A DNA stretch of 24,419 bases. Origin: a virus. The position numbers and the translations under genes were made by a program. Below the pieces are notes generated by a model that ran no database searches, was not told where the DNA came from, and saw only the letters and a list, made by a program, of their open reading frames with translations. Below are positions 1 to 15,804 of the stretch, piece after piece (positions within the stretch are counted from its first letter, which is position 1; each line of letters starts with the position of its first letter). The DNA lies in the IMG/VR virus record IMGVR_UViG_3300027631_000130, positions 1 to 24,419 of that record; one strand, given 5' to 3'.

Positions 1-3000
1 CAGATGGATCTTTTATTCCAGAAACCCCAGCCAAATTAGGCATATGGCCAAAATACAAACCAATGCTTTACTTGGATACCACATTGGTTACTCCTCGTTG
101 GATGATACAAGGGCATGATGGCAGTCATGTTCTTGCATACGGGACATACGGCACCAACGGCGTTGCCGATTATCGAGATGCAATCATCTTGGAATTAGAA
201 AAACGAATTTTTAATAATATCAAAGTAGAATACAATACAGAAATTTTTGATATTGCAGAACTATTACCTAGCTATAATAGACCTGGTGATTATTCTAGAA
301 AAGAATTTAATCAAGTATTGGCTCCTTCTTTCTATCAATGGTCTGCATTAGTTGATAGAGATTTTACAAAACCGTTGAGTTTTGATAGAAATAATCCTTT
401 TACTTTTAAATACAGTTCATTTAGTACTCCTGACGGACAAGAGACTCCGGGATATTGGCGCGGAATTTATCAATGGATTTATGATACAGACCGTCCACAT
501 ATTTGTCCTTGGGAAATGTTAGGGTTCAGTATTGAACCAGCTTGGTGGCAAACCCTGTATGGTCCTGCACCGTACACCAGCGATAACCTTGTGATGTGGA
601 AAGACATATCAGAAGGCTTTGTACGCAATCCGGCTGTTCCAGCAGTGCAATTAAAAAAATATATTAAACCTTTTTTATTAAAACACTTACCAGTAGACTC
701 AGTGGGTAATTTAGTTAATCCGTTAGTATCTGGATTCATTAAAGGAACAATAACTGCTCACTCTCAAACAGATTTTGTATTTGGTGACGGCAGTCCGGTT
801 GAAACTGCTTGGAAGAGAAGTAGTCACTATGCATTTAGTGCAATATTAACTGCACTTTTATTAAAACCTTCTGATACTTTTGGAAAATTATTAGATAGAT
901 CTAGAATAATACGGAATCGTTGTGGACAACTAGTTTATAACGAAACTGGATTGCGAATTAAATCTGAAGATATCAAATTACCAAGCATTTATTCTAGCAC
1001 CAGTCGTGTTCAGACATCGGGAATTATTAACTATATTATAAATTATATTCTAAGTGATAATTTAAAATCATATGAGACTTACACTTATGATTTAACTTAT
1101 ATTAATACACGATTGAGTCATCGAGTTGGAGCATTCACATCAAAAGAAAAATTTAAATTATTGTTAGACTCTAAATCTCCACTATCAACTAGCAGTGTAT
1201 TTGTACCTCCAGAGGATTATACGGTAATCCTAAATTCGTCTTCCCCTATAAAAAAATTAACCTATAGCGGAGTAATTGTCAGCAAATTATCTGATGGGTA
1301 CGAGATCAAGGGCTATAGTAGAAGTACTCCTTATTTTAAATACTACCAATACCAGCAGTCTGGCATTACTATAAACATAGGTGGAATATCTGAGAATTTT
1401 GTCACGTGGACGGCCAACGAGCAATTTGGCGCTGGCCAAGTTGTCAAGTATAATAATCAATACTTTAGGTCAACAGTAACACACACAACTTCAAATTCTT
1501 TCAACGACTCTTACTACGAAGCACTACCGCGTTTACCAATCATAGGCGGCAGAGATGCGGTGATACGAAAGTCGTGGGATAAGTCTATTATTAATACTAG
1601 TCCGTATGGTACAAAATTTGAAAAGATACAAGAAGTTGTTGATTTCTTATTAGGATACGGCGAGTGGTTAAAAGACGAAGGGTTTATATTTGACGAGTTT
1701 AATCCAATATTAAATGCAGTTACTAACTGGGAAACTAGTGCCAAAGAATTTTTATTCTGGACAACACAAAATTGGAGCAACGGCCAGGAAAAATGGGCAG
1801 AGTGGACACCGGGTATGCGTATGACGTTCGGTGACATAGTTAGATATAATGGCGACTATTTCAAAGCTAATACAAATTCAACTTCTTCAGTATTTTTAGA
1901 AACTGATTTTACAAAATTAGATGGACTTGGTAGTACAGGTGGATCGGCAATAAGTCTAAGTCCATCTGCCGCAAAGCTCACATTTAAAACAGAATTAAGT
2001 GTAATTGATGATATTCGTAATCCGTTTAACGGGTATGAAATTTTTAAAGTTGACGGGACACCACTTGAACCAACTTTTATTAATTCTTATAGAGAAGACA
2101 ATGCCGTTAGTTATAGTCCTCGAAGTGAAGACGGCATATACGGCGCAACATTTTATTTAATACAACAAGAACATGTTGTCTTGTTAAACAACACTACCAT
2201 ATTTAATGATACAATTTTTAAACCAGAAACTGGTTATAAACAAGATAGAATTAAAGTTTCAGGATACGTTAGCACCAATTGGTACGGTGGACTAGACATT
2301 CCTGGATTTATTCTTGATGTTGCCGAGATACAGAATTGGACACCTTGGGAAGATTACGACCTTGGTGATATTGTAAAATATAAACAATTTTATTATACTG
2401 CAAGTAGATTTTTACCAGGCGCGGTTGCCTTTGTTAACGAAGACTGGATATTGTTAGATAAGAAACCAGTAACACAACTATTGCCAAACTGGACATACAA
2501 GGCAGAACAATTCACAGACTTTTATAGTTTAGATAGCGATAACTTCGACACTGCGCAACAACAATTAGCCCAACATTTAATTGGCTATCAAAAGAGACAA
2601 TATCTAAGTAACATTATTAAAGATGATGTAAGCGAATTTAAATTCTATCAAGGAATGATTCGCGAAAAAGGAACACAAAACAGTTTAAACAAATTATTTG
2701 ATGTGAAATCTGCCATTGGCGAAGAAAGTTTAACATTTTACGAAGAGTGGGCAATTAGAACAGGTCAGTACGGAGCAAGCGAAGCGTTTGAGTCAATTGA
2801 ATTTATCTTAGACGAATCTAAGATTAGAAGTAATCCCCAGGGATTTTATCTATCAGAAAATCTTGATGACCCGAACGACTTCATAATTACGTATAATTCA
2901 AATCAGGTATATTTAAAACCAGTTGGATATAAATCTAACCCTTGGCCTGTTTTGCAAAATTATCGTCCTTATTTAAGAAGCGCAGGCTATTTTAGATCTG

Positions 3001-6000
3001 ATGAAGTATACACAACTATAAAATCTCTAAACGATGTTTTATTAGCAGATCCGTCAACATTCCAACCAAACATATCTATAGCAGTTACCTTCGAAGGTAC
3101 TGGCTGGAATGTTTACAAATATATCAATGCCAGCGTCAATGTTACTGCTGTGGATTATAGCAGTAGTGCAAAAACTTTAACAATTACACTGAGCGAGTTA
3201 GTAGATTTTACCGCTGGATCGTATATAGGTATAGATCAGGTTGATTTAATAAAAGGATTTTATAAAATTATTTCAGTATCACTGAATACATTTACGGTTT
3301 CCGCAACAATTGCAAGCTGGGCGCCGCCTTTCACGCAATCTCAAAAAATAGTAATTTTTAAATTTGTTAGCCAACGATCTACGTCAATGGACTTAGTTGA
3401 TAATCTAACACGACCGACTTTAATCCCAGGTGATAAATTATGGATTGATTCTGATAGTAATAATAACTGGTCCGTATGGGAATATTCTCCTATATACAGT
3501 AGAAACCTTATTCCAAATTCTTCGCCCGTTGACGGCGCAAATTACGGAAAGATTATTTCTTCTACAAAATTGGGAAAAATCATTGCAATTGGTTCTAATT
3601 CAGGTGACATAGAAATATGGGATAAATCTGGATACAATTCTCCGTGGATACAACGACAGCTTGTTACTAAGCCGTTTGTCAGTTATTTGTCTAACGAATC
3701 TAAATTAGGAACCGTTGTTGCATTATCGTTTGACGGAAAATGGTTAGCTACTGGCAGTCCGTTGGCAAGTAACGCATATACAAAATTAAAAGGTGAGTTT
3801 AATACTAATACGTCGTATGTTACAGACGATATTGTATACCTAAGTAACAGTAGTATATACACTGGATTTTATCAAGCATTACAAAATAACACCAATAGCA
3901 CAATGCCAAGACCAGACGGTGTTGCAGGATTAATACCAAATGTAATATCTTGGAAAAAAATAAAATATGTTCCAACATTGTTAAGTGGAACTAGTAGTGG
4001 ATTAGCAGAACAAGGAGTTGTCAGTTTATATAGTAAGGATGCTAACAATATTTTTACACTAGTAGATACAATTGTAAGCCCGTTCCCAACTGCTAATGAA
4101 AAATTTGGATCGCAGTTAGCATTTGCTAATGACATACTGTACATCTCAGCTATTGGTTATAATAATAACGCTGGCCGAGTTTATAAATTTGAACATTCAG
4201 AAGATGTCCAAGCAACTACGTATTATAATCCTGTTGGTAGTTCAAATACTACGTTAACGGTTACTTCTACGGTAGGAGTGTTACCCGGCATGTTAATTAC
4301 CGGCGTCGGATTCAGCTCCGGCCAACTAGTAACGGCTGTAATTGATTCAAAAACATTAACAATTTCACAAAGACCAGATATAACACCGACAGGGTTAATT
4401 GAGTTTTCAACAGTGGGCTGGGGATTTAATTTGTCAGCAACGTTATCTGGAGATGTTACAGATCGACACTTTGGATCAGGAATAGTAACAACAGATGACG
4501 ACAGCACGTTAGTAGTTACTGCCAACAATAATTCGTTATCCGGTCAAGTTAAAATTTATAAATTAGGGGTGTTATCTCAAACTCTAACGGGTACTAATTT
4601 AAATTTTGGAAAGAGTGTTGATATTTCCGATACCGCAGACTATTTGGTAATTTCTGACAGTTTAGCAGACAATGAAAAACAAGATTCAGGAACGGTAACT
4701 ATTTACAAATTTATAGCATCTGCATTTGTACCATACCAGACATTGAAAAATCACAATCCAGAAAATTCAGGATATTTTGGAAGCAAGGTTGCATTTATTG
4801 ATGATTACAAAACTATTGTTGTTTATAGTTCTGATCAAGACACTGTTCTAAAAACTATCTTCGACGAAAATCAAACAATTTTTGATAAAGATTCTACTAA
4901 CATATCACAGCTAGCCGCTGAATCTGGCCGAGTTGATGTATATGATATGTATGACACAAAATGGATTTATAGCGAAACTTTAGAAAATTTACAAACATCC
5001 GGCTCAGGTTTTGGTCAAGGCATAGCAACTGGCAATAATCATATTATTGTAACAGCGCCGTTTGAATCCGATCAAAATTTACAATCTGGCATAGTAATTG
5101 ATTACGAGAAAAAAGAAAATACATTTAGCTGGAATATTAAACATCAGCAAATAACTGTACCAGATCCTTCCAAAGTTAAATCTGCATTTTTATACAACAA
5201 AGCTACTGGCGAATTGGTAAAATATGTAGATGTGATCGATTTGGCACAAGGTAAGATTGCAGGCCCTGCTAGAGAAGAAATTAAATTTTCATGTTATTAT
5301 GATCCTGCCATCTATTCAGTTAGCAATGCTAACAATGATGTAACAGTTGACGCCGCGGCACCATGGGGCAAAGAACAAGTCGGTTACATTTGGTGGGATT
5401 TAAGAACTACAAAATTAATTGACGCATATGACGATTCTGTAGTCTATAGAAATAGCGTATGGAATTCGTTAGCAGTTGGTGCAACAGTAGACTTGTATGA
5501 ATGGGTTGAAAGTACAGTATTACCAGCAGCCTGGGACCTTCAGGCTGATACAGAAGCTGGAATAGCCAACGGTATTAGCGGTACGAGTTTATATGGAAAT
5601 AATGTTTATTCTATAAAAGAAAGATTTGATACCGGAACTCAAACAAAGAAATACATTTACTATTACTGGGTAAAAAATAAAAAAACTATTCCTAACGTAC
5701 CTAGCAGAAATTTATCAGCTAGCGATGTTGCAAGTTTAATTGAGAATCCACGAGGATCGGCTTACACATATCTTGCATTAACTGGACCAAACTCATTTAG
5801 TTTAGTAAATGCCGTCAACTATTTGCAAGATGCTAACGTAGTATTGTCTGTAGAATATTGGACGGTAGATTCTCCATCCCAGAATATACACAGCCAATGG
5901 AAAATTATTAATAGCGATTCTGCTACGGTAATACCTTCTCATCTTGAACAAAAATGGTTTGATAGTTTATGCGGCAAAGATGCAATGGGAAGGGATGTTC

Positions 6001-9000
6001 CAGATTTAACGTTAGCAGAAAAACTTCGTTACGGCGTAGAAAATAGGCCTCGTCAGGGCATGTTTATTAATCGATTTGAAGCATTAAAACAATTAATCGA
6101 AGAAGCCAATACTGTGTTATTAGCAAATCCAGTTGTTGACAGTCGAAATATTTCAAACATCGATGTAAAAGAATCAGCACCTAATTTAGTATCTGGGTTG
6201 TACGATACTACCCAAGAAACATCAGAAGAATTACGATTTGTAAACGTTGGGGCTTTTAGAAGACCTATATTTGGCAGTTGCACTATTGTCGATGGCAAAA
6301 TAACAGATATCAATATTTCGTATTCAGGCCGAGGCTACTTAGTTGCGCCTTACATTTCAATATCAGGCAATGGCGAAGGAGCAATAGTTAAAGCTATATT
6401 AAGCAGTAACGGCACGGGGCAAATTATCGGAGTAACTATTGTAAACTCAGGCGAAGGATATGACGACAATACTGTTGCTACAGTTCGAGACTATTCAGTG
6501 TTGGTAGCAAGCGATTCCGAAGCTCAAGGCGTTTGGAGCATATACTCATACGATCCAGTTGGGAAATTGTGGTCACGCACTAAATCTCAATCATATGATG
6601 TAACTATATATTGGAATAAAACTGATTGGTTTGCACCGGGATACAGTCAGTTTACTGCAATTGATCATGCAGTAGATATGGTTTCAGATTTACAAACACT
6701 AGCTGATTCCGTTGGCCAAATTATCAAAGTTCGTACAACTACTACAGGTTGGTCGCTATTAGAAAAAATATCCAACGTAGAATCGTTTGATTATACACAA
6801 ATGTATAAAGTAGTGGGACTAGAAAACGGAACAATACAATTAAATTCTGCATTATATACATCTTCAACGGTTAGTACTGGATACGACGGAACAACTTATG
6901 ACGGAATAGCATTTGATAATAGTCCTACTTTAGAACTTAGAATTATTTTAGAATCTTTGAAGAATGATATTTTTATTGATGATTTAAAAATAAATTATTT
7001 AAATTTATTTTTCACTACTGTAAGATACGCATTGAGCGAACAAGTTTACTTAGATTGGATATTTAAAACAAGTTTTATTAAAGCAAGACACAATGTTGGA
7101 AAGTTATCAACACCAGTGACCTATAATAATGACAACTTGTCAAATTTTCAAGATTATATAAATGAAGTTAAACCATTTAAGTCTAAAATTCGAGAATATG
7201 TTAGTAGTTACCAGTTAGTAGATCCGACTTCTACTATGGTTTCAGATTTTGACTTGCCTCCAATATATAGAAATAATGCAATAACAACAATAGCTACCAA
7301 TGCGAATAGAGGTACAGTAACAGCAGACGATGCTACCATTAGACAATATCCTTGGAAAAACTGGTTAGATAACGTTGGGTTTATTGTAACAGATATAACA
7401 ATTATTAATGGCGGATCTGGTTATGTTGGAGAACCCGTTGTAAAAATTACAAACGATTCCGGCAGCGGCGCAACGGCCCGAGCATTTTTTACAAACGGTA
7501 TTATTAATAGAATTATTTTACTTACACATGGTTCTGGATACTTGTCAGCACCTACCATATCAATAATAGGCGGATTATCGTCAACCGGCGTTGCGGCGCG
7601 GGCTGTAGCAATTATTGGAAATAGTGTATCCTCTTCGGAATTCCACGGTGTTATTAGATCAAGCCTAATTAAAATAAAATTTGATAGAATAACAAGTTCT
7701 CATTTCTTTGTTAACTTAGAAGAAACAGAATTTATTAATACTACTGGAAATTTACAATATAAACTCACATATGCTCCGGATATCACTATTGGATCATCAA
7801 CGCTTACAATTAACGATATTCCAGTATTACGAGAAAATTACGCATTATCAACAGTCACAACAAAAACTGACTACACTAAGTATTCGGGATTATTGACATT
7901 CAAACCGGGAACTCAGCCTGTTACCGGCCAAGTTATTAAAATTGTTTATCTAAAGAATCAGTCGTTATTAAACGCTGCCGATAGAATACATCATTATTAT
8001 AATCCGCAAGCTGGCGATATTGGTAATGATTTATCGCAATTGATGACTGGAGTAGATTACGGTGGAGTAATAGTACAAGGTCTTGGATTTGATGTTAGTT
8101 CGGGTTGGGGAACAACACCGTGGTTTACAGATAAATGGGACAGTTTTGATCCACTGTTTGACGACTACATACTAACCGTCGCGGCTAATACACGTTCTTT
8201 TATGTTACCTTATATTCCTACACCAGGAACTAAAATTAACACATATTACGTAGGTTTAAATTTAACTACAATACCTGTGGTAACTGATGTATTAACTTAT
8301 TCATATACTTTTATTGGAACAAATCCTACCGCATCTCTAGTAAGAAGTGTAGCGGCTGGCGGCACGTCAACAAATTATATTCCAGTAGGAACATATGATC
8401 CAACTTCAGTTGTGGTAAAAGTAGCGAGTGTTACTGGAATATTACCAGGAATGTCTATATTAGGCACAGGGTTTACTTCAAAACAAACCGTATTATTAAT
8501 TAATTCCACGTCCGATACCGTTACATTAACTGCTCCACCGAACGTACAGCCTAACGGTACTTTATATTTTACAAAGAGTATAGCGGGATCTGCAACGTTA
8601 TCGTTAAGCAGTACAGTTGGATTAAGAGTCGGCGACAAGGTAACTACATCTTCTGCATCTTCTTTTGGGGTTGACACTGTAATTAAAACAATTTTAAATA
8701 GTACAGAAATTCTTTTAAACCAAATAATATATGTTACGGTTCCAACAGCGGCAACAATTGTCTTTACTAGAGCATTAAATAAATACACTGACATAGTGAT
8801 TTCTAACGGATTTGTAAACTTAACAAATTCCTTAACTTCTGGAAGTGTTATTAATATTACTAGCACGTTGCCTAGTGTTAAATTAGACGACGAAAATTTT
8901 GGAACGCCCCAACAAACTAACGACAATGCAGTTATATCTACATTTATTGGAAATGGAAATTTAAATACTGTAACAATTCCAAATACGTTTGTAGTATCCG

Positions 9001-11618
9001 ACGGCGATAAATTTATACTTCGAAAGAGCACAAGCGACGGTTCCCTTATTCCTCAAGATACAGACTACGACACTACATTAAGTGGTGGAGCATTTGACGG
9101 TAATTATACCAGTGGCACATTTACTAGTGCAACTGGATATGCCGCTGATGATATCATACTAGATGGAGACGGATTTGTAACACCAACTAGTAGTCCTGCT
9201 CCTGAAGAAGTGATTCCTGGACAAGTAGTTGATACAGTTGCTATTAAAGTATATGACCAACCAAATTCAGGAGCAGCCAACATTAAAGTTGATAATTTTA
9301 TTGGAAATTCGTCGACGACAACATTTAAAATGTCTCAAACCCCAAATAGTGCAGAATCGGTTATTGTTAAGAAATCTAATGTTATCTTAAATTCAGATCA
9401 ATACACTGTTGACTATAGAGCTAGAGAAGTAGCATTATTAACACCGCCAGCAACCGGTGAAATAGTAAGCATTTATAATATAGGCTTTAACGGTAATAAT
9501 ATTTTAGATATTGATTACTTTGTTGGCGATGGGACAACTACTGAATTTATTACTAAAGCACCATGGTTGTCAGCAGTTACTAATATTGTTTATGTAGACG
9601 GTGTTGTTGCAACCCCAGTATTATTCCAAACAGATGCAACGTATGAAACTGCTAAACGTGTTGCTTTACGATTTGCCACAGCACCTGCTACCAATGCATT
9701 AATACATTATGTTATTGTTTCGGGTAATCAGCAAACATTTGCAATAACTAAAAAAGAAAGAATTGTTACTACAGGAACGCACACTTATACATTAGCTTTT
9801 CCAATAGGAAACAATTTACCTGCCGAGGCAAATATGATTGTTAGGGTAAATCAAACTATTCTACCTTCGCCTATTAGCAGTTATTTTACTATAAAAAATA
9901 ACAAATTGTCTTATAAAATTGACGCAACGAAAATTGTGCCGTATTCTACTCCTATCACAAATATTTTAGTTATTGTTGGAACAACAGTATTAAAATTAGG
10001 AACTGATTACACTGTGGATCTTGGCGGCTTGACTATTAAAATAAACAAGATAACGTATGCAACTTATGTTAATCAAACACTGGTAGTAACAGTGAATAAT
10101 TCGCAAGGGTATGTATATAATTCAACTAACAATACGATTGTATTTTCGCAGGCTTATACAAGTTCTGACTTAGTTGAAGTTATTAGTTCTTATAATCACG
10201 ATATATTAGACATACAAAGAACTGCAATTACAATTAGTACAAATTTATCAATAACAGAAAATTCAGCAGAGTTCTATACTTATAAAGAAGCGTTGTCTGG
10301 ATTAATTGCACTTGATAGGACTGTAATTTCTGACGAATACGTATGGGTTGTAAAAAATAATACGTTACTAGTACCGTCGGTGGATTACAAATTAAACAAC
10401 AATAAACAAAGTATTCAACTTGCAACTAAACCGGCTATCAGCGATGTATTCACTTTAATTACATTTGGCAACAATGTGTTAGGATCAACTATATCCTATA
10501 TGCAATTTAAAGATATGTTAAATCGAGTACACTACAAGAGATTAAGTAAAAATAAACAAACTCAGCTATTACAGCCGCTAGCGTTTAACGACACTACAAT
10601 TATTGTTGAAGATGCTAGCAATTTTGACATTCCAAATGCCGCTATAAATCGTCCAGGTATAATTGAGATTAGAGGTGAACGTATTGAGTTTTTTGGACTT
10701 ACTGGTAATGTTCTAAGCAAATTGCGCCGAGGTACACTAGGAACTGGAGTACCATTACAACATAATGCTGGAACTTTAGTACAAGATATAGGCCCGTCAG
10801 AAACTTTACCTTATAATGAATCTTCTGTAATACAACAAATAGAGTCAGACGGATCGGCTGTTATTAATTTAAATTTTATTCCTACAAAGGTTGTAGAAAC
10901 GGCTATGAACTTTACAATAGGTCGTCAATACAAGATTGTTACTTTAGGCACAACTGATTGGAATACAGTTGCCAACACTACTGGAGTATTATATGCTGTT
11001 GACAGTTTAGTAACAATAGCTAAATCGGCAACAGGAACCGGTACTGCAATATCTACTTCTTACGGGCAATGCGATGAACTAGAAGTGTTTATTGGCGGCT
11101 ACAATATTGATACTGTGTGGACTTCTGCTATACCTTATACAGTTGGCACATTAGTTATTTCAGGAAGTTACACATATCAAGCAACAGTTTCGCATACTAG
11201 TAAGACAACTTTTAAACAAGACTATGATTTAGGCTATTGGAAGTTATTTGTTGGTAATACTCGATTAAAGAAAATTCCCTACAAGGTGCACCACGAATTA
11301 CAAAGTTCAGTAGCATCGTTAAATCCTACTAATCTTGACCAATTAATGGCAGCTGAGTTTACTGTAGACGGTGTTTCGACAGCTGTCAGGTTAACTACGC
11401 CTGTTGATGTAGGCGTTAAAGTAACTGTTGTTAAGAGAATGGGCACAGATTGGGATAGTACGTTAAATATACAATACGATACCGGCGCCATAACTGAATT
11501 TTTAAAAGCAACCCCAGGAATTTGGTACAATAGTAATAATATATCAACTATCTACACTGGAACTTTTGATAATAGAGCTACAGGATTTTTTGATAGTGAT
11601 GAAAATACATGGGAATAA
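1..11618 (+). CDS. Giant multidomain virion structural/adhesion protein (5' end outside window)
   Basis: The reading frame is open from base 3 (DGSFIPETPAKLG...) through the ATG at 63 to TAA at 11616-11618. The true start therefore lies to the left, and at least 3,871 codons (over 400 kDa) are present. Numbering from the ATG at 63, residues 1-430 form a conserved-looking region (IQGHDGS, PWEMLGF, YGPAPYTSDN, GDGSPVETAW). CBM5/12-like modules (W...Y..GD.V.Y...Y.A) lie near residues 448-491, 561-621, 756-803, 1245-1307 and 3684-3730. An FG-GAP propeller covers about 1160-1685. A helical stretch (LTLAEKLRYGVENRPRQGM) lies near 1985-2010. GSGY repeats occur at 2080-2141 and 2442-2520, and fibronectin-like 'VDG..DYTV' repeats fill about 2950-3480. 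A GERIEFF...LRRGTLGT motif and a YKIVTLGTTDW motif precede the C-terminus. There is no signal peptide or clear membrane span. The composition fits a phage tail or baseplate protein. The exact role is unknown; host-surface glycan binding is inferred from the modules. Confidence 0.9.
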   Translation, partial: DGSFIPETPAKLGIWPKYKPMLYLDTTLVTPRWMIQGHDGSHVLAYGTYGTNGVADYRDAIILELEKRIFNNIKVEYNTEIFDIAELLPSYNRPGDYSRKEFNQVLAPSFYQWSALVDRDFTKPLSFDRNNPFTFKYSSFSTPDGQETPGYWRGIYQWIYDTDRPHICPWEMLGFSIEPAWWQTLYGPAPYTSDNLVMWKDISEGFVRNPAVPAVQLKKYIKPFLLKHLPVDSVGNLVNPLVSGFIKGTITAHSQTDFVFGDGSPVETAWKRSSHYAFSAILTALLLKPSDTFGKLLDRSRIIRNRCGQLVYNETGLRIKSEDIKLPSIYSSTSRVQTSGIINYIINYILSDNLKSYETYTYDLTYINTRLSHRVGAFTSKEKFKLLLDSKSPLSTSSVFVPPEDYTVILNSSSPIKKLTYSGVIVSKLSDGYEIKGYSRSTPYFKYYQYQQSGITINIGGISENFVTWTANEQFGAGQVVKYNNQYFRSTVTHTTSNSFNDSYYEALPRLPIIGGRDAVIRKSWDKSIINTSPYGTKFEKIQEVVDFLLGYGEWLKDEGFIFDEFNPILNAVTNWETSAKEFLFWTTQNWSNGQEKWAEWTPGMRMTFGDIVRYNGDYFKANTNSTSSVFLETDFTKLDGLGSTGGSAISLSPSAAKLTFKTELSVIDDIRNPFNGYEIFKVDGTPLEPTFINSYREDNAVSYSPRSEDGIYGATFYLIQQEHVVLLNNTTIFNDTIFKPETGYKQDRIKVSGYVSTNWYGGLDIPGFILDVAEIQNWTPWEDYDLGDIVKYKQFYYTASRFLPGAVAFVNEDWILLDKKPVTQLLPNWTYKAEQFTDFYSLDSDNFDTAQQQLAQHLIGYQKRQYLSNIIKDDVSEFKFYQGMIREKGTQNSLNKLFDVKSAIGEESLTFYEEWAIRTGQYGASEAFESIEFILDESKIRSNPQGFYLSENLDDPNDFIITYNSNQVYLKPVGYKSNPWPVLQNYRPYLRSAGYFRSDEVYTTIKSLNDVLLADPSTFQPNISIAVTFEGTGWNVYKYINASVNVTAVDYSSSAKTLTITLSELVDFTAGSYIGIDQVDLIKGFYKIISVSLNTFTVSATIASWAPPFTQSQKIVIFKFVSQRSTSMDLVDNLTRPTLIPGDKLWIDSDSNNNWSVWEYSPIYSRNLIPNSSPVDGANYGKIISSTKLGKIIAIGSNSGDIEIWDKSGYNSPWIQRQLVTKPFVSYLSNESKLGTVVALSFDGKWLATGSPLASNAYTKLKGEFNTNTSYVTDDIVYLSNSSIYTGFYQALQNNTNSTMPRPDGVAGLIPNVISWKKIKYVPTLLSGTSSGLAEQGVVSLYSKDANNIFTLVDTIVSPFPTANEKFGSQLAFANDILYISAIGYNNNAGRVYKFEHSEDVQATTYYNPVGSSNTTLTVTSTVGVLPGMLITGVGFSSGQLVTAVIDSKTLTISQRPDITPTGLIEFSTVGWGFNLSATLSGDVTDRHFGSGIVTTDDDSTLVVTANNNSLSGQVKIYKLGVLSQTLTGTNLNFGKSVDISDTADYLVISDSLADNEKQDSGTVTIYKFIASAFVPYQTLKNHNPENSGYFGSKVAFIDDYKTIVVYSSDQDTVLKTIFDENQTIFDKDSTNISQLAAESGRVDVYDMYDTKWIYSETLENLQTSGSGFGQGIATGNNHIIVTAPFESDQNLQSGIVIDYEKKENTFSWNIKHQQITVPDPSKVKSAFLYNKATGELVKYVDVIDLAQGKIAGPAREEIKFSCYYDPAIYSVSNANNDVTVDAAAPWGKEQVGYIWWDLRTTKLIDAYDDSVVYRNSVWNSLAVGATVDLYEWVESTVLPAAWDLQADTEAGIANGISGTSLYGNNVYSIKERFDTGTQTKKYIYYYWVKNKKTIPNVPSRNLSASDVASLIENPRGSAYTYLALTGPNSFSLVNAVNYLQDANVVLSVEYWTVDSPSQNIHSQWKIINSDSATVIPSHLEQKWFDSLCGKDAMGRDVPDLTLAEKLRYGVENRPRQGMFINRFEALKQLIEEANTVLLANPVVDSRNISNIDVKESAPNLVSGLYDTTQETSEELRFVNVGAFRRPIFGSCTIVDGKITDINISYSGRGYLVAPYISISGNGEGAIVKAILSSNGTGQIIGVTIVNSGEGYDDNTVATVRDYSVLVASDSEAQGVWSIYSYDPVGKLWSRTKSQSYDVTIYWNKTDWFAPGYSQFTAIDHAVDMVSDLQTLADSVGQIIKVRTTTTGWSLLEKISNVESFDYTQMYKVVGLENGTIQLNSALYTSSTVSTGYDGTTYDGIAFDNSPTLELRIILESLKNDIFIDDLKINYLNLFFTTVRYALSEQVYLDWIFKTSFIKARHNVGKLSTPVTYNNDNLSNFQDYINEVKPFKSKIREYVSSYQLVDPTSTMVSDFDLPPIYRNNAITTIATNANRGTVTADDATIRQYPWKNWLDNVGFIVTDITIINGGSGYVGEPVVKITNDSGSGATARAFFTNGIINRIILLTHGSGYLSAPTISIIGGLSSTGVAARAVAIIGNSVSSSEFHGVIRSSLIKIKFDRITSSHFFVNLEETEFINTTGNLQYKLTYAPDITIGSSTLTINDIPVLRENYALSTVTTKTDYTKYSGLLTFKPGTQPVTGQVIKIVYLKNQSLLNAADRIHHYYNPQAGDIGNDLSQLMTGVDYGGVIVQGLGFDVSSGWGTTPWFTDKWDSFDPLFDDYILTVAANTRSFMLPYIPTPGTKINTYYVGLNLTTIPVVTDVLTYSYTFIGTNPTASLVRSVAAGGTSTNYIPVGTYDPTSVVVKVASVTGILPGMSILGTGFTSKQTVLLINSTSDTVTLTAPPNVQPNGTLYFTKSIAGSATLSLSSTVGLRVGDKVTTSSASSFGVDTVIKTILNSTEILLNQIIYVTVPTAATIVFTRALNKYTDIVISNGFVNLTNSLTSGSVINITSTLPSVKLDDENFGTPQQTNDNAVISTFIGNGNLNTVTIPNTFVVSDGDKFILRKSTSDGSLIPQDTDYDTTLSGGAFDGNYTSGTFTSATGYAADDIILDGDGFVTPTSSPAPEEVIPGQVVDTVAIKVYDQPNSGAANIKVDNFIGNSSTTTFKMSQTPNSAESVIVKKSNVILNSDQYTVDYRAREVALLTPPATGEIVSIYNIGFNGNNILDIDYFVGDGTTTEFITKAPWLSAVTNIVYVDGVVATPVLFQTDATYETAKRVALRFATAPATNALIHYVIVSGNQQTFAITKKERIVTTGTHTYTLAFPIGNNLPAEANMIVRVNQTILPSPISSYFTIKNNKLSYKIDATKIVPYSTPITNILVIVGTTVLKLGTDYTVDLGGLTIKINKITYATYVNQTLVVTVNNSQGYVYNSTNNTIVFSQAYTSSDLVEVISSYNHDILDIQRTAITISTNLSITENSAEFYTYKEALSGLIALDRTVISDEYVWVVKNNTLLVPSVDYKLNNNKQSIQLATKPAISDVFTLITFGNNVLGSTISYMQFKDMLNRVHYKRLSKNKQTQLLQPLAFNDTTIIVEDASNFDIPNAAINRPGIIEIRGERIEFFGLTGNVLSKLRRGTLGTGVPLQHNAGTLVQDIGPSETLPYNESSVIQQIESDGSAVINLNFIPTKVVETAMNFTIGRQYKIVTLGTTDWNTVANTTGVLYAVDSLVTIAKSATGTGTAISTSYGQCDELEVFIGGYNIDTVWTSAIPYTVGTLVISGSYTYQATVSHTSKTTFKQDYDLGYWKLFVGNTRLKKIPYKVHHELQSSVASLNPTNLDQLMAAEFTVDGVSTAVRLTTPVDVGVKVTVVKRMGTDWDSTLNIQYDTGAITEFLKATPGIWYNSNNISTIYTGTFDNRATGFFDSDENTWE
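3540..5117 (+). other. FG-GAP-type beta-propeller region inside the giant protein, about seven blades
   Basis: Seven successive segments repeat an 'FG..v.....d.l.i.......G.v.iy' pattern. They start near 3540 (YGKIISSTKLGKIIAIG), 3697 (SKLGTVVALSFDGKWLATG), 4098 (EKFGSQLAFANDILYISA), 4459 (RHFGSGIVTTDDDSTLVV), 4599 (LNFGKSVDISDTADYLVI), 4767 (GYFGSKVAFIDDYKTIVV) and 5001 (SGFGQGIATGNNHIIVTA). Each ends in a strand such as GRVYKF, GQVKIYK or GTVTIYKF. This is the integrin-alpha/FG-GAP pattern, and seven copies would close a propeller. Blade 2 is interrupted by a CBM5/12-like insert (about 3795-3985) and the loop after blade 3 by a 'PGM' mini-domain (4245-4409). The family assignment is by pattern only. 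Confidence 0.6.
4245..4409 (+). repeat. 'PGM' beta mini-domain, copy 1
   Basis: This in-frame module of about 55 residues has the pattern TVTSTVGVLPGMLITGVGF, then SGQ.V, a strand TLTIS, and P..TPTGLIEFS. It matches the copy at 8406-8579 in spacing and key residues (G.LPGM.I.G.GF, V..I.S..TLT, P...P.G...F). It is inserted between propeller blades 3 and 4. Confidence 0.7.
6300..6486 (+). repeat. GSGY-type beta repeat pair, first block
   Basis: The block holds two half-units ending in GRGY and GEGY (ISYSGRGYLVAPYISISG, then IIGVTIVNSGEGY), with a GEGAIVKAIL strand between them. This is the 'G.GY..aP.v.i.g..g.GA.a.a' repeat often seen in marine phage structural proteins. It matches the block at 7386-7622 in the same gene. 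Confidence 0.65.
7386..7622 (+). repeat. GSGY-type beta repeat pair, second block
   Basis: Two half-units are visible, INGGSGYVGEPVVKITN and LTHGSGYLSAPTISIIGG. They are followed by GSGATARAFF and TGVAARAVAI strands. The spacing and the G-S-G-Y core match the block at 6300-6486, so the module was duplicated within the gene. The bases around GATARA and VAARA are locally GC-rich because of Gly/Ala codons. Confidence 0.7.
8406..8579 (+). repeat. 'PGM' beta mini-domain, copy 2
   Basis: The segment reads VASVTGILPGMSILGTGF, then SKQTV, TVTLTAPP and NVQPNGTLYF. It lines up along its whole length with 4245-4409. A more distant third copy follows directly at 8589-8774. Confidence 0.7.
8589..8774 (+). 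repeat. 'PGM'-like beta mini-domain, copy 3 (divergent)
   Basis: The segment SATLSLSSTVGLRVGDKVTT, a variable loop, ILLNQ and PTAATIVF keeps the S..T.VG...G..V and terminal I.F positions of copies 1 and 2. It has lost the PGM core. It directly abuts copy 2, which suggests tandem duplication. Confidence 0.5.
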
Positions 11619-13110: not shown

Positions 13111-15804
13111 ATGACAGATCCGATTCCACATCTTGGTAATCCTGATGATAAAAGTTTAAAAAAGTATATTGTTACTTTAAAAAACTTTGAAGATTCAACA
13201 GAATTTTATGACAACATGGAAACAAACGGCAGCGGCATTAATAATGTATTACCTATTAGATCAATAGAATGCGTTAATCGTAAACCATCGAGTAGGAATA
13301 CTGAATATATGATGACGTATGATGAAGCGGCACTGGTACTTGATGATCCGCGAGTTTTGGCAGTTGAATTGAATCCTGAAGACCTTGGATTCATTAAAGC
13401 GCCTTTTAGTTTTGAACAAACATCTGCTCAATTTAACAAAGCTGTAGCAAGTAGTGCAACAGATATTAATTGGGGACTACTTCGTGTTCTTAGAGCAACA
13501 GACATCAGTAACTGGGGATCAACAGGAACAATCAATCAATCAGCTTCTATAATAGCAGATTCTTCTGGCAGAAATGTTGACGTTGTAATTATGGACGATG
13601 GATGCCCATATCCAACAACATTAGAATATCAAAAAAACCCAGATGGTACTGGTTACCCTCGAATGGTAGAATACAATTGGTACCAGCATAATCCAGTAGT
13701 TACTGGCGGAGCTGTGGGAGAATACCCTTACAGTGCTGAAAGACTACAAGAACATGGCTCCCACACCACAGGCACTGTTGCTGGTAATACACAAGGATGG
13801 GCACGAGATGCAAACATTTTTAATTTAACCTATAATGACTCAATTGATTATGTAAAAGAATTCCACAAAAATAAACCAGTTAATCCGTTAACTGGTGTAA
13901 AAAATCCCACAGTAATGAATAACAGTTGGGGTTATCGAGGCGGCGCCTTATCAACTGCTTCAATATCTAAACTAACAATCCGAGGCGTTGAATATTTTCC
14001 AACAAGTGGTACACAAGGATCGTATGTTTGGGATGCAAACGTTATACAAAATATTGCTCGATTAAATATTGGAGGCGCATTTCCTGCAAGAAATACTGCA
14101 ACTGATGTTGATATGATTGAAGCAATGGCGGAAGGTGTAATTATTGTAGCAAGTGCAGGTAATAGTTATTTTTACCAAGATTCAATAGGCGGCCTGGATT
14201 ATAATAATACCATGATACAGAACGGCACAACATATTACATTCATCGTGGCAGTAGTCCTGGAGCTGCCGATGGCGGCACCGAAAGTACAAAAATTATTTG
14301 CTCTGGCGCAAGTGGTCAACATAATGAAACATCTACAAATATATATGATGCAACTTCGATTGAAGTTGGAGATTACAAAGCAGAATTTAGTAATTATGGC
14401 CCTCGTATTGATTGCTATGCACCTGGCTCTGGAATTCAAAGTATTTGGAAAGCAAATTCAGATTTGTATGATAACACCAATACTACAGATCCTCGAGTAG
14501 CGGCACTAGGTCTAACAGACACTACTAATAATAATTTTAAAAAATGTCCGGGTACTAGCATGAGCGGTCCCCAGACCGCTGGCGTACTTGCATGTCTTGC
14601 TGAAAAATATCCTAGAATGACACAAGCTGATGCTAGAGCATATATCAAGAATGCTTGCCCTTCTACTATGTTAAGTACTAGTGGCGGAGCTCAAGATTCT
14701 AAAGACGCAGGCCCATCATTTAATTCGTCTAGTAACGTACAGATGCTTATACTTCGTGGAACAAGACACCCAACAGCAGACGTTGGAGGATATTATCCAA
14801 CACCGTTTCCTTCAGTCGTTGATAAACATAGACCACCTAGTGGCCAAGCCTACCCAAGAAGAAATACTGTAAACAGTTTTAATAAAAATGCAACCTTTGC
14901 TTTGGCAACAGATTTTGCAACAAGAACTAATGGTCAAACTGCAACTATTACATTTACTACTAATATTCCAAACGGAACAGACGTGCAATATTTAATAACA
15001 GCTAAACCAAAATCAGAAACAACTACTCCTACATTACTAGATACTGGCCTAAGCGGTGTTTATTCATCGAGCGCTACTATACTTAATTCAGCTTTTTTTG
15101 ATACTAGACCAAATACTGGTAATAGAATTGAAACAATTTCTGGATCTGCAACTCACAGTGTTATCACAAACAACCTACTTGGCGCAGGATCTCTAACATT
15201 ATCAACTCCAACTGCGCCAGCTGGATTAGTATATACAGGAGCATCGAGTGGAGACGATGGATATTGGACTGTACCGCTGCCATTCAACATTACATATTTA
15301 GGCCAAACATACAGCACTGTGTATATAGGTACTAACACTTATATCACATTTGGTGGAGGATCTATTGCCTATGCGCAACTAGGCCCAGCTGAGCCTCCTT
15401 ACCCTAAAATTATGATATCTGCGGCAGATAATAAAGCGTTTCGAATTTATCACGGGATTGAAGGAACATCTCCAAATAGAACATTTAGAATTAGATGGGA
15501 AGGACACCATGTTTATAACTCCGCTGAAACCACTCCTACTATGATTTATGAAGCTACTTTTTACGAACAATACCCAGCAAGAGTTGAAATTCATACCGGA
15601 GTTAACGCTAGATGGTCTACCCTATCTACCACCACAACTCCTCCCTTTTCCGTTTCTTATATCGATAAGCCGCTAGTTGGTACAATGACAGTTAGCAATG
15701 GATCAGCAACTTTACCAATAACAATAAACACTGCAACTGGCTATGTTATGAACGTTAGATTGGGAATATTTCCTAGCCCAAGCGTTGATATAACATTAAA
15801 CTAG
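13111..15804 (+). CDS. Subtilisin-like serine protease (peptidase S8), virion-associated candidate
   Basis: This 897-aa protein carries a complete S8 active site. Asp162 lies in VIMDDG, His215 in EHGSHTTG, the oxyanion Asn351 in ASAGN and Ser483 in PGTSMSGPQTAG. MNNSWG matches the substrate-binding strand. The His-to-Ser distance (268 residues) exceeds that of subtilisin (157), so there are insertions. Residues 18-92 (KYIVTLKN, YMMTYDEAALVLDDP, VLAVELNPED) resemble an inhibitor I9 propeptide. There is no signal peptide. After the protease come a beta domain (about 590-650) and a NIDO-like domain (about 710-830: LPFNITYLGQTYSTVYIGTN). The gene starts 1 nt after the fibre stop, with an AGAGG site inside the fibre gene, so translation is probably coupled. 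Fibre or tail maturation, or digestion of host surface protein, is inferred from position. Confidence 0.92.
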   Translation: MTDPIPHLGNPDDKSLKKYIVTLKNFEDSTEFYDNMETNGSGINNVLPIRSIECVNRKPSSRNTEYMMTYDEAALVLDDPRVLAVELNPEDLGFIKAPFSFEQTSAQFNKAVASSATDINWGLLRVLRATDISNWGSTGTINQSASIIADSSGRNVDVVIMDDGCPYPTTLEYQKNPDGTGYPRMVEYNWYQHNPVVTGGAVGEYPYSAERLQEHGSHTTGTVAGNTQGWARDANIFNLTYNDSIDYVKEFHKNKPVNPLTGVKNPTVMNNSWGYRGGALSTASISKLTIRGVEYFPTSGTQGSYVWDANVIQNIARLNIGGAFPARNTATDVDMIEAMAEGVIIVASAGNSYFYQDSIGGLDYNNTMIQNGTTYYIHRGSSPGAADGGTESTKIICSGASGQHNETSTNIYDATSIEVGDYKAEFSNYGPRIDCYAPGSGIQSIWKANSDLYDNTNTTDPRVAALGLTDTTNNNFKKCPGTSMSGPQTAGVLACLAEKYPRMTQADARAYIKNACPSTMLSTSGGAQDSKDAGPSFNSSSNVQMLILRGTRHPTADVGGYYPTPFPSVVDKHRPPSGQAYPRRNTVNSFNKNATFALATDFATRTNGQTATITFTTNIPNGTDVQYLITAKPKSETTTPTLLDTGLSGVYSSSATILNSAFFDTRPNTGNRIETISGSATHSVITNNLLGAGSLTLSTPTAPAGLVYTGASSGDDGYWTVPLPFNITYLGQTYSTVYIGTNTYITFGGGSIAYAQLGPAEPPYPKIMISAADNKAFRIYHGIEGTSPNRTFRIRWEGHHVYNSAETTPTMIYEATFYEQYPARVEIHTGVNARWSTLSTTTTPPFSVSYIDKPLVGTMTVSNGSATLPITINTATGYVMNVRLGIFPSPSVDITLN

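Follow-up and report, generated by a model that had tools for sequence, protein, structure and literature searches.

We report that a virus record of 24,419 bases (analysed over its whole length and hereafter called the window) encodes, within one reading frame of a giant phage protein, seven consecutive FG-GAP-type blades (3489-5147), and that a confident structure prediction makes this region a closed FG-GAP propeller of seven blades whose fold is that of the integrin alpha head. A probable baseplate component of very large phages thereby shares the head fold of an animal adhesion receptor. We put at roughly 55% the probability that the ring, set in a hairpin turn of this baseplate-cluster protein, is a display scaffold whose exchangeable loop domains contact the host surface.

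A giant protein encoded in a baseplate gene cluster

The first open reading frame of the window is open at its 5' end (Table 1). The same propeller was present at 100% identity on two further metagenomic contigs, one of which, L002, spans the complete gene, with 4,863 codons between stops and 4,856 amino acids counted from the first ATG. Between L002 and the window the giant protein was 100% identical through residue 1800 and 96-98% identical downstream (window 5403-11615), a C-terminal divergence that suggests strain recombination or local diversification.

The protein matched phrog_10938 (E 7e-204 with the part in the window, 1e-298 with the complete L002 protein), and both flanks of the propeller were homologous to the giant virion proteins found in jumbo phages of RaK2, 121Q, PA5oct and Atu_ph07 type. 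Unlike the window, the named isolates in this family have no propeller at the site as judged by the blade profile (one 4-bit match in XaC1).

In L002 the directly adjoining upstream gene is gp6-like (phrog_219), and in the genomes of the homologues a gp25-like/baseplate gene is followed by a baseplate wedge gene and then by the giant-protein gene. Because gp25-like and gp6-like/wedge genes precede it, the giant gene lies at the position of T4 gp7. No sequence homology to T4 gp7 was detected: the giant protein's profile matches to PDB sequences included no T4 baseplate chain. The frame is directly followed by genes matching the baseplate wedge-tail fibre connector family and the tail fibre/collar families. 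The cluster in the window also holds a subtilase (S8) gene (13111-15804) with His (HGSHT) and Ser (GTSMSGP) motifs; a simple pattern found no standard Asp motif in it.

Virion proteomics covers homologues that have no propeller at this site: PA5oct gp355 is tagged ESI-MS/MS in its record, and CBB_236, which is the giant-protein gene by gene position, yielded 21 unique peptides in the virion (PMC5259590). These data, together with the phrog_10938 match, bear out the initial annotation's description of a phage structural protein. From its gene position, the giant protein is probably a tail baseplate component in very large phages.

Seven FG-GAP-type blades

Seven FG-GAP-like blades had been proposed from the letters of the DNA. 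A held-out profile, built from the blades of relatives with the window and its four closest relatives excluded, returned eight matches, at residues 1180-1224, 1236-1260 with 1335-1360, 1367-1397, 1490-1530, 1534-1583, 1591-1662 and 1669-1715, which make up seven blades in order because the insert of blade 2 divides that blade in two. Every match had an i-E of 6e-7 or better, and the profile found no comparable blade in the rest of the giant protein or in any other reading frame of the window. Shuffling of the region produced one match at i-E<=0.01 in 19 of 200 trials and two in 0 of 200; the shuffles and the held-out profile together ruled out chance repeats. All seven of the claimed blades were thus recovered, more than the six consistent ones that the initial proposal required. 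The propeller occupies about residues 1180-1705 of the window part of the giant protein. The annotated span, 3540-5117, took in blade 1 to most of blade 7, but the full domain covers about 3489-5147, from an N-terminal closing strand (about 3489-3512) onwards.

The blade consensus, NFGSSIAFSNDGSTLAVSSPGALTNSGRVYIYKKDSNNKWVLSQTITSPS, is that of an FG-GAP blade. It is shared with Pfam FG-GAP_2 (PF14312), a family of repeats without calcium loops, although here the blades lie within a giant phage protein and bear modules in their loops. FG-GAP_2 scored 33 bits on the window fragment against a curated cut-off of 23 and was found at E<=0.1 in 21 of 24 relatives; on the whole 3871-aa protein it gave a single stretch at 21.6 bits, below the cut-off. 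A profile of the region searched against PDB sequences matched integrin alpha-4 (E 6e-5), and the profile searches thus agree with the proposed kinship to FG-GAP and integrin families. The D.D.DG..D calcium motif was absent from the window and from all 107 members with a propeller (described below), in which the 1-2 loops are short (medians 3-6 residues). Calcium-dependent binding of the integrin type was ruled out by the missing motif, so that the term integrin-like holds for the fold but not for the calcium motifs.

Predicted fold

AlphaFold2, run on an alignment of 24 relatives, gave a mean pLDDT of 79 overall, with values of about 85-95 for almost the entire propeller, and a pTM of 0.75; the lowest pLDDT inside the ring fell in the blade-6 insert, and the strand list held four strands per blade. 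In VIA-align the top match was integrin alpha-L (Z 32.6, 3.0 A, 346 residues, 17% identity), and integrin alpha heads made up all of the best 50 matches listed. Residues 124-667 of the model aligned with integrin residues 1-590, model residue 124 falling on integrin residue 1. In integrins, the strand at residue 1 closes blade 7. The structural part of the initial annotation was therefore upheld by a confident model that superposes on closed integrin rings.

Multi-propeller WD40 proteins ranked first in Foldseek, with integrin alpha-4 at rank 24. A WD40 propeller was nevertheless rejected, since the Foldseek TM-scores of the WD40 chains were mostly below 0.35 (query-normalised), VIA-align favours integrins and the sequence profiles are those of FG-GAP. 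Against viral models, Foldseek returned a close homologue from an uncultured phage, 36-40% identical where the two align, as well as FG-GAP proteins from giant viruses of algae and amoebae, so that viral FG-GAP propellers as such are already known. Propeller-like predicted folds were also seen in stand-alone phage proteins (A0A2L0UZX4 of Atu_ph07 and H6WG31 of cyanophage S-TIM5), one of them named 'Hemagglutinin', from phages without this insertion or of other groups.

Insertion into a hairpin turn

At the same site, L031 (12734-14362) and its duplicate contig L021 are empty, reading WTTWQY-QTSKWEVLHTV where the window has SVWEYS-(550 aa)-FSWNIKHQQ. Both sides of the hairpin are kept in L031, and in the alignment the ring fills the turn of this beta-hairpin. 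The ends of the ring would lie next to each other, as they should when the N-terminal strand closes a propeller. The model of the empty site in L031 was low in confidence (mean pLDDT 54.6, with about 67-85 for the hairpin strands flanking the insertion point), and the placement therefore rests more on the alignment than on the model. The site is also nearly empty in RaK2, PBECO4 and XaC1. Unrelated sequence occupies it in Atu_ph07, Phosso and SCTP-2 (L059, L058 and L060), as over 1,000 aa of unrelated domains or, in SCTP-2, another domain; a LamG-type sandwich at the SCTP-2 site, suggested by eye only, was set aside because Pfam gave no confirmation.

Table 1. Features of the giant reading frame and its propeller (positions in the window)
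Feature	Position	Strand	Basis or remark
Giant virion structural protein ORF, phrog_10938	3..11618	+	5' end outside window; 3871 aa in window
Host-domain strands KLWI...SVWEY, outgoing side of hairpin holding the propeller	3435..3485	+	Model; kept in L031
N-terminal strand SRNLI, probably closing blade 7 as in integrin alpha	3498..3512	+	Model, strand list
Blade 1	3540..3671	+	Model, held-out profile
Blade 2, split by CBM-like insert	3702..4085	+	Model, held-out profile
CBM5/12-like module, blade-2 2-3 loop	3780..3962	+	Model, module profile, Pfam
Blade 3, split by small beta module	4101..4463	+	Model, held-out profile
'YNPVGSS...GM.I.G.GF' beta module, blade-3 3-4 loop	4221..4406	+	Model, module profile
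Blade 4	4467..4595	+	Model, held-out profile
Blade 5, strongest FG-GAP_2 match	4602..4751	+	Pfam, held-out profile
Blade 6	4773..4988	+	Model, held-out profile
Blade-6 2-3 loop insert (FDENQTIFDKDST...)	4830..4928	+	Model (lower confidence), loop count
Blade 7	5007..5150	+	Model, strand list, held-out profile, alignment
Last strand of blade 7, WNIKHQ, probable return strand of host hairpin	5130-5147	+	Model, strand list, alignment
Second copy of blade-3 module	8373..8570	+	Residues 2791-2856, i-E 3.5e-15
'GTTDFT' module copy	10893..11054	+	Residues 3631-3684, i-E 1.7e-5

Variable modules in few loops

Two inserted modules had been noticed in the blades; both proved real, as a CBM5/12-like module in blade 2 and a small beta module in blade 3, and a third, shorter insert was found in blade 6, where 90 of 107 relatives have a 2-3 loop insert of 25 aa or more. 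Pfam CBM_5_12 matched the blade-2 module in just 5 of 24 relatives, so the sugar site of this insert may be degenerate. CBM_5_12 was the only named binding family detected in the inserts, and no integrin alpha-I domain was found in the propeller loops. The 'GTTDFT' module sits in the blade 6-7 loop in some relatives, and because loop modules recur elsewhere in the giant protein (Table 1), the loops are supplied from a common pool of modules.

Loop lengths were taken from a profile alignment of the 107 propeller members, with an insert defined as 25 aa or more. By this count, which mislabels some long blade-3 inserts as blade 4, inserts occupied 0/749 of the 1-2 loops, 211/749 of the 2-3 loops, 93/749 of the 3-4 loops (all in blade 3) and 31/642 of the 4-1 loops. 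A second count was for this reason made from split profile matches; it assigned no insert to the 1-2 loops and left 32 of 194 inserts without a clear loop class, 11 of these being either 4-1 or the next blade's 1-2. By standard propeller topology, one face carries the 2-3 and 4-1 loops and the opposite face the 1-2 and 3-4 loops, and in integrins the 2-3/4-1 face bears the ligand and the alpha-I domain. Since the commonest insert, in the blade-3 3-4 loop, lies opposite that face, any display would not be purely one-sided.

Among relatives, the blades are constant and the inserts vary in kind and in length, up to about 1,000 aa. This pattern, read from sequences, supports the initial suggestion that the propeller may display the modules. 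In L205 (10095-15221), seven blades surround roughly 1,000 aa of glycine/serine/threonine-rich repeats placed after blade 4. The ring of the short relative L038 is almost free of inserts.

Distribution and selection

We collected 116 distinct architectures of the site from public viral contigs and named phages, a sample biased toward relatives of the window. At least five blade matches were found in 107 of the 116; grouping of matches into blades gave exactly seven in 61 of these and six to eight in 99, the rest being split or missed matches. In a tree of the flanks, the 107 members fell into one clade of 108 (support 0.97), whose remaining member is the propeller-less L021, nested deep within that clade (support 1.0 for its group of seven). 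The sampled tree therefore has one gain of the propeller and one clean loss, and because it was lost in L021/L031 the propeller is dispensable in at least one lineage. No cellular-genome relatives with a conserved flank were found. The propeller is a clade-wide trait of uncultivated large phages; described at first as unusual, it is thus not a one-off oddity.

In comparisons with three relatives, dN/dS climbed from 0.04-0.08 in the flanks through 0.08-0.11 in the core of the propeller to 0.14-0.31 for the inserts; with the closest relative, L004, values for core (0.097) and inserts (0.11-0.13) were almost alike. All parts were under purifying selection in the comparisons of the window with these four relatives, and dN/dS, well below 1 throughout, gave no sign of positive selection.

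Discussion

The propeller shares with the integrin alpha head (alpha-L, alpha-M, alpha-V and alpha-5) seven FG-GAP blades in a ring, a closing N-terminal strand and domains inserted in propeller loops, the integrin's being the alpha-I domain. It differs in its low identity to integrin alpha (17%), in the lack of DxDxDG calcium loops, in the loops used and the kinds of insert, and in its setting within a phage structural protein. Among phages, the nearest precedents in the literature found are PhiKZ gp131 and phi11 Gp45, as described in one source (PMC4901313). There, PhiKZ gp131 has a C-terminal seven-bladed propeller (4GBF) at the baseplate periphery of a jumbo myophage, its role being unproven, and so shares blade number and a jumbo phage baseplate with the window; gp131 was among neither the region's sequence-profile matches nor the Foldseek and VIA-align matches listed. 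The phi11 receptor-binding protein Gp45 has, according to the same text, a baseplate propeller proposed to bind GlcNAc, in which an N-terminal strand closes the ring, but it has five blades, belongs to a trimeric fibre-type protein and, in the part of the source available, is reported with no large loop modules. Our search of open papers found no phage baseplate protein with a propeller of FG-GAP or integrin type, nor a module-swapping propeller of this sort; within that range, both are new.

In the reading that we favour, the ring and its hairpin anchor would stay constant while a few loops bear exchangeable small domains (CBM5/12-like and other beta modules), and these domains would contact the host surface, most likely glycans, as the baseplate lands. 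That the propeller is a display scaffold which binds the host surface or fibres is an inference, as are its position in the particle, the exposure of its loops and its binding of a ligand. Tentatively, this may be extended to the whole clade of uncultivated phages: the integrin-alpha-like propeller, gained once, could be an evolvable display platform on which modules as long as about a thousand residues are exchanged to alter what the phage grips. The insertion of domains into integrin heads offers a parallel in organisation to such a platform.

Propellers are general protein-protein docking platforms, and the ring could instead be an assembly hub whose faces dock baseplate or fibre proteins, for example the downstream fibre products, with inserts co-varying with these partners and not with receptors. 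The fibre-connector and tail fibre/collar matches of the next genes would suit such a role, as would the peripheral propeller of PhiKZ gp131, with its function unproven (PMC4901313). We regard this as rather unlikely, given that some loop modules resemble CBM5/12 carbohydrate-binding modules, and that the domain was cleanly lost in one lineage and the propeller-less clade assembles tails anyway. The same loss, the very variable length of the inserts (to about 1,000 aa) and their status as the fastest-evolving part in most comparisons would also fit a largely neutral decoration, in which recombined modules pile up in tolerant loops with no specific ligand; but the ring is kept in 107 of 108 clade members with a stable blade number, dN/dS is purifying in core (0.07-0.11) and inserts (0.11-0.31) alike, and the 1-2 loops have no assigned inserts, all of which makes neutrality improbable. 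Least credible is an enzyme of the sialidase, lyase or lactonase kind acting on surface polysaccharide: several phage propellers are glycosidases, such as the endosialidases named in the same source (PMC4901313), yet the kinship of this one is to FG-GAP/integrin propellers and not to an enzymatic family, and a weak Lactonase match appeared in only 1 of 24 relatives (E 0.057).

As a display scaffold, the ring would be a natural example of a propeller used to present domains, with seven blades kept and inserts of very different size at few fixed loops. The variable loop modules suggest that the phage could vary the surface with which it grips host cells or other parts of the tail, and the arrangement provides a testable model for diversification of binding in such phages beyond the tail fibres.

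Modules of the CBM5/12 kind also occur beyond the propeller; in the giant reading frame as a whole, Pfam recognises three such stretches, the best at residues 468-498 (window 1404-1496).
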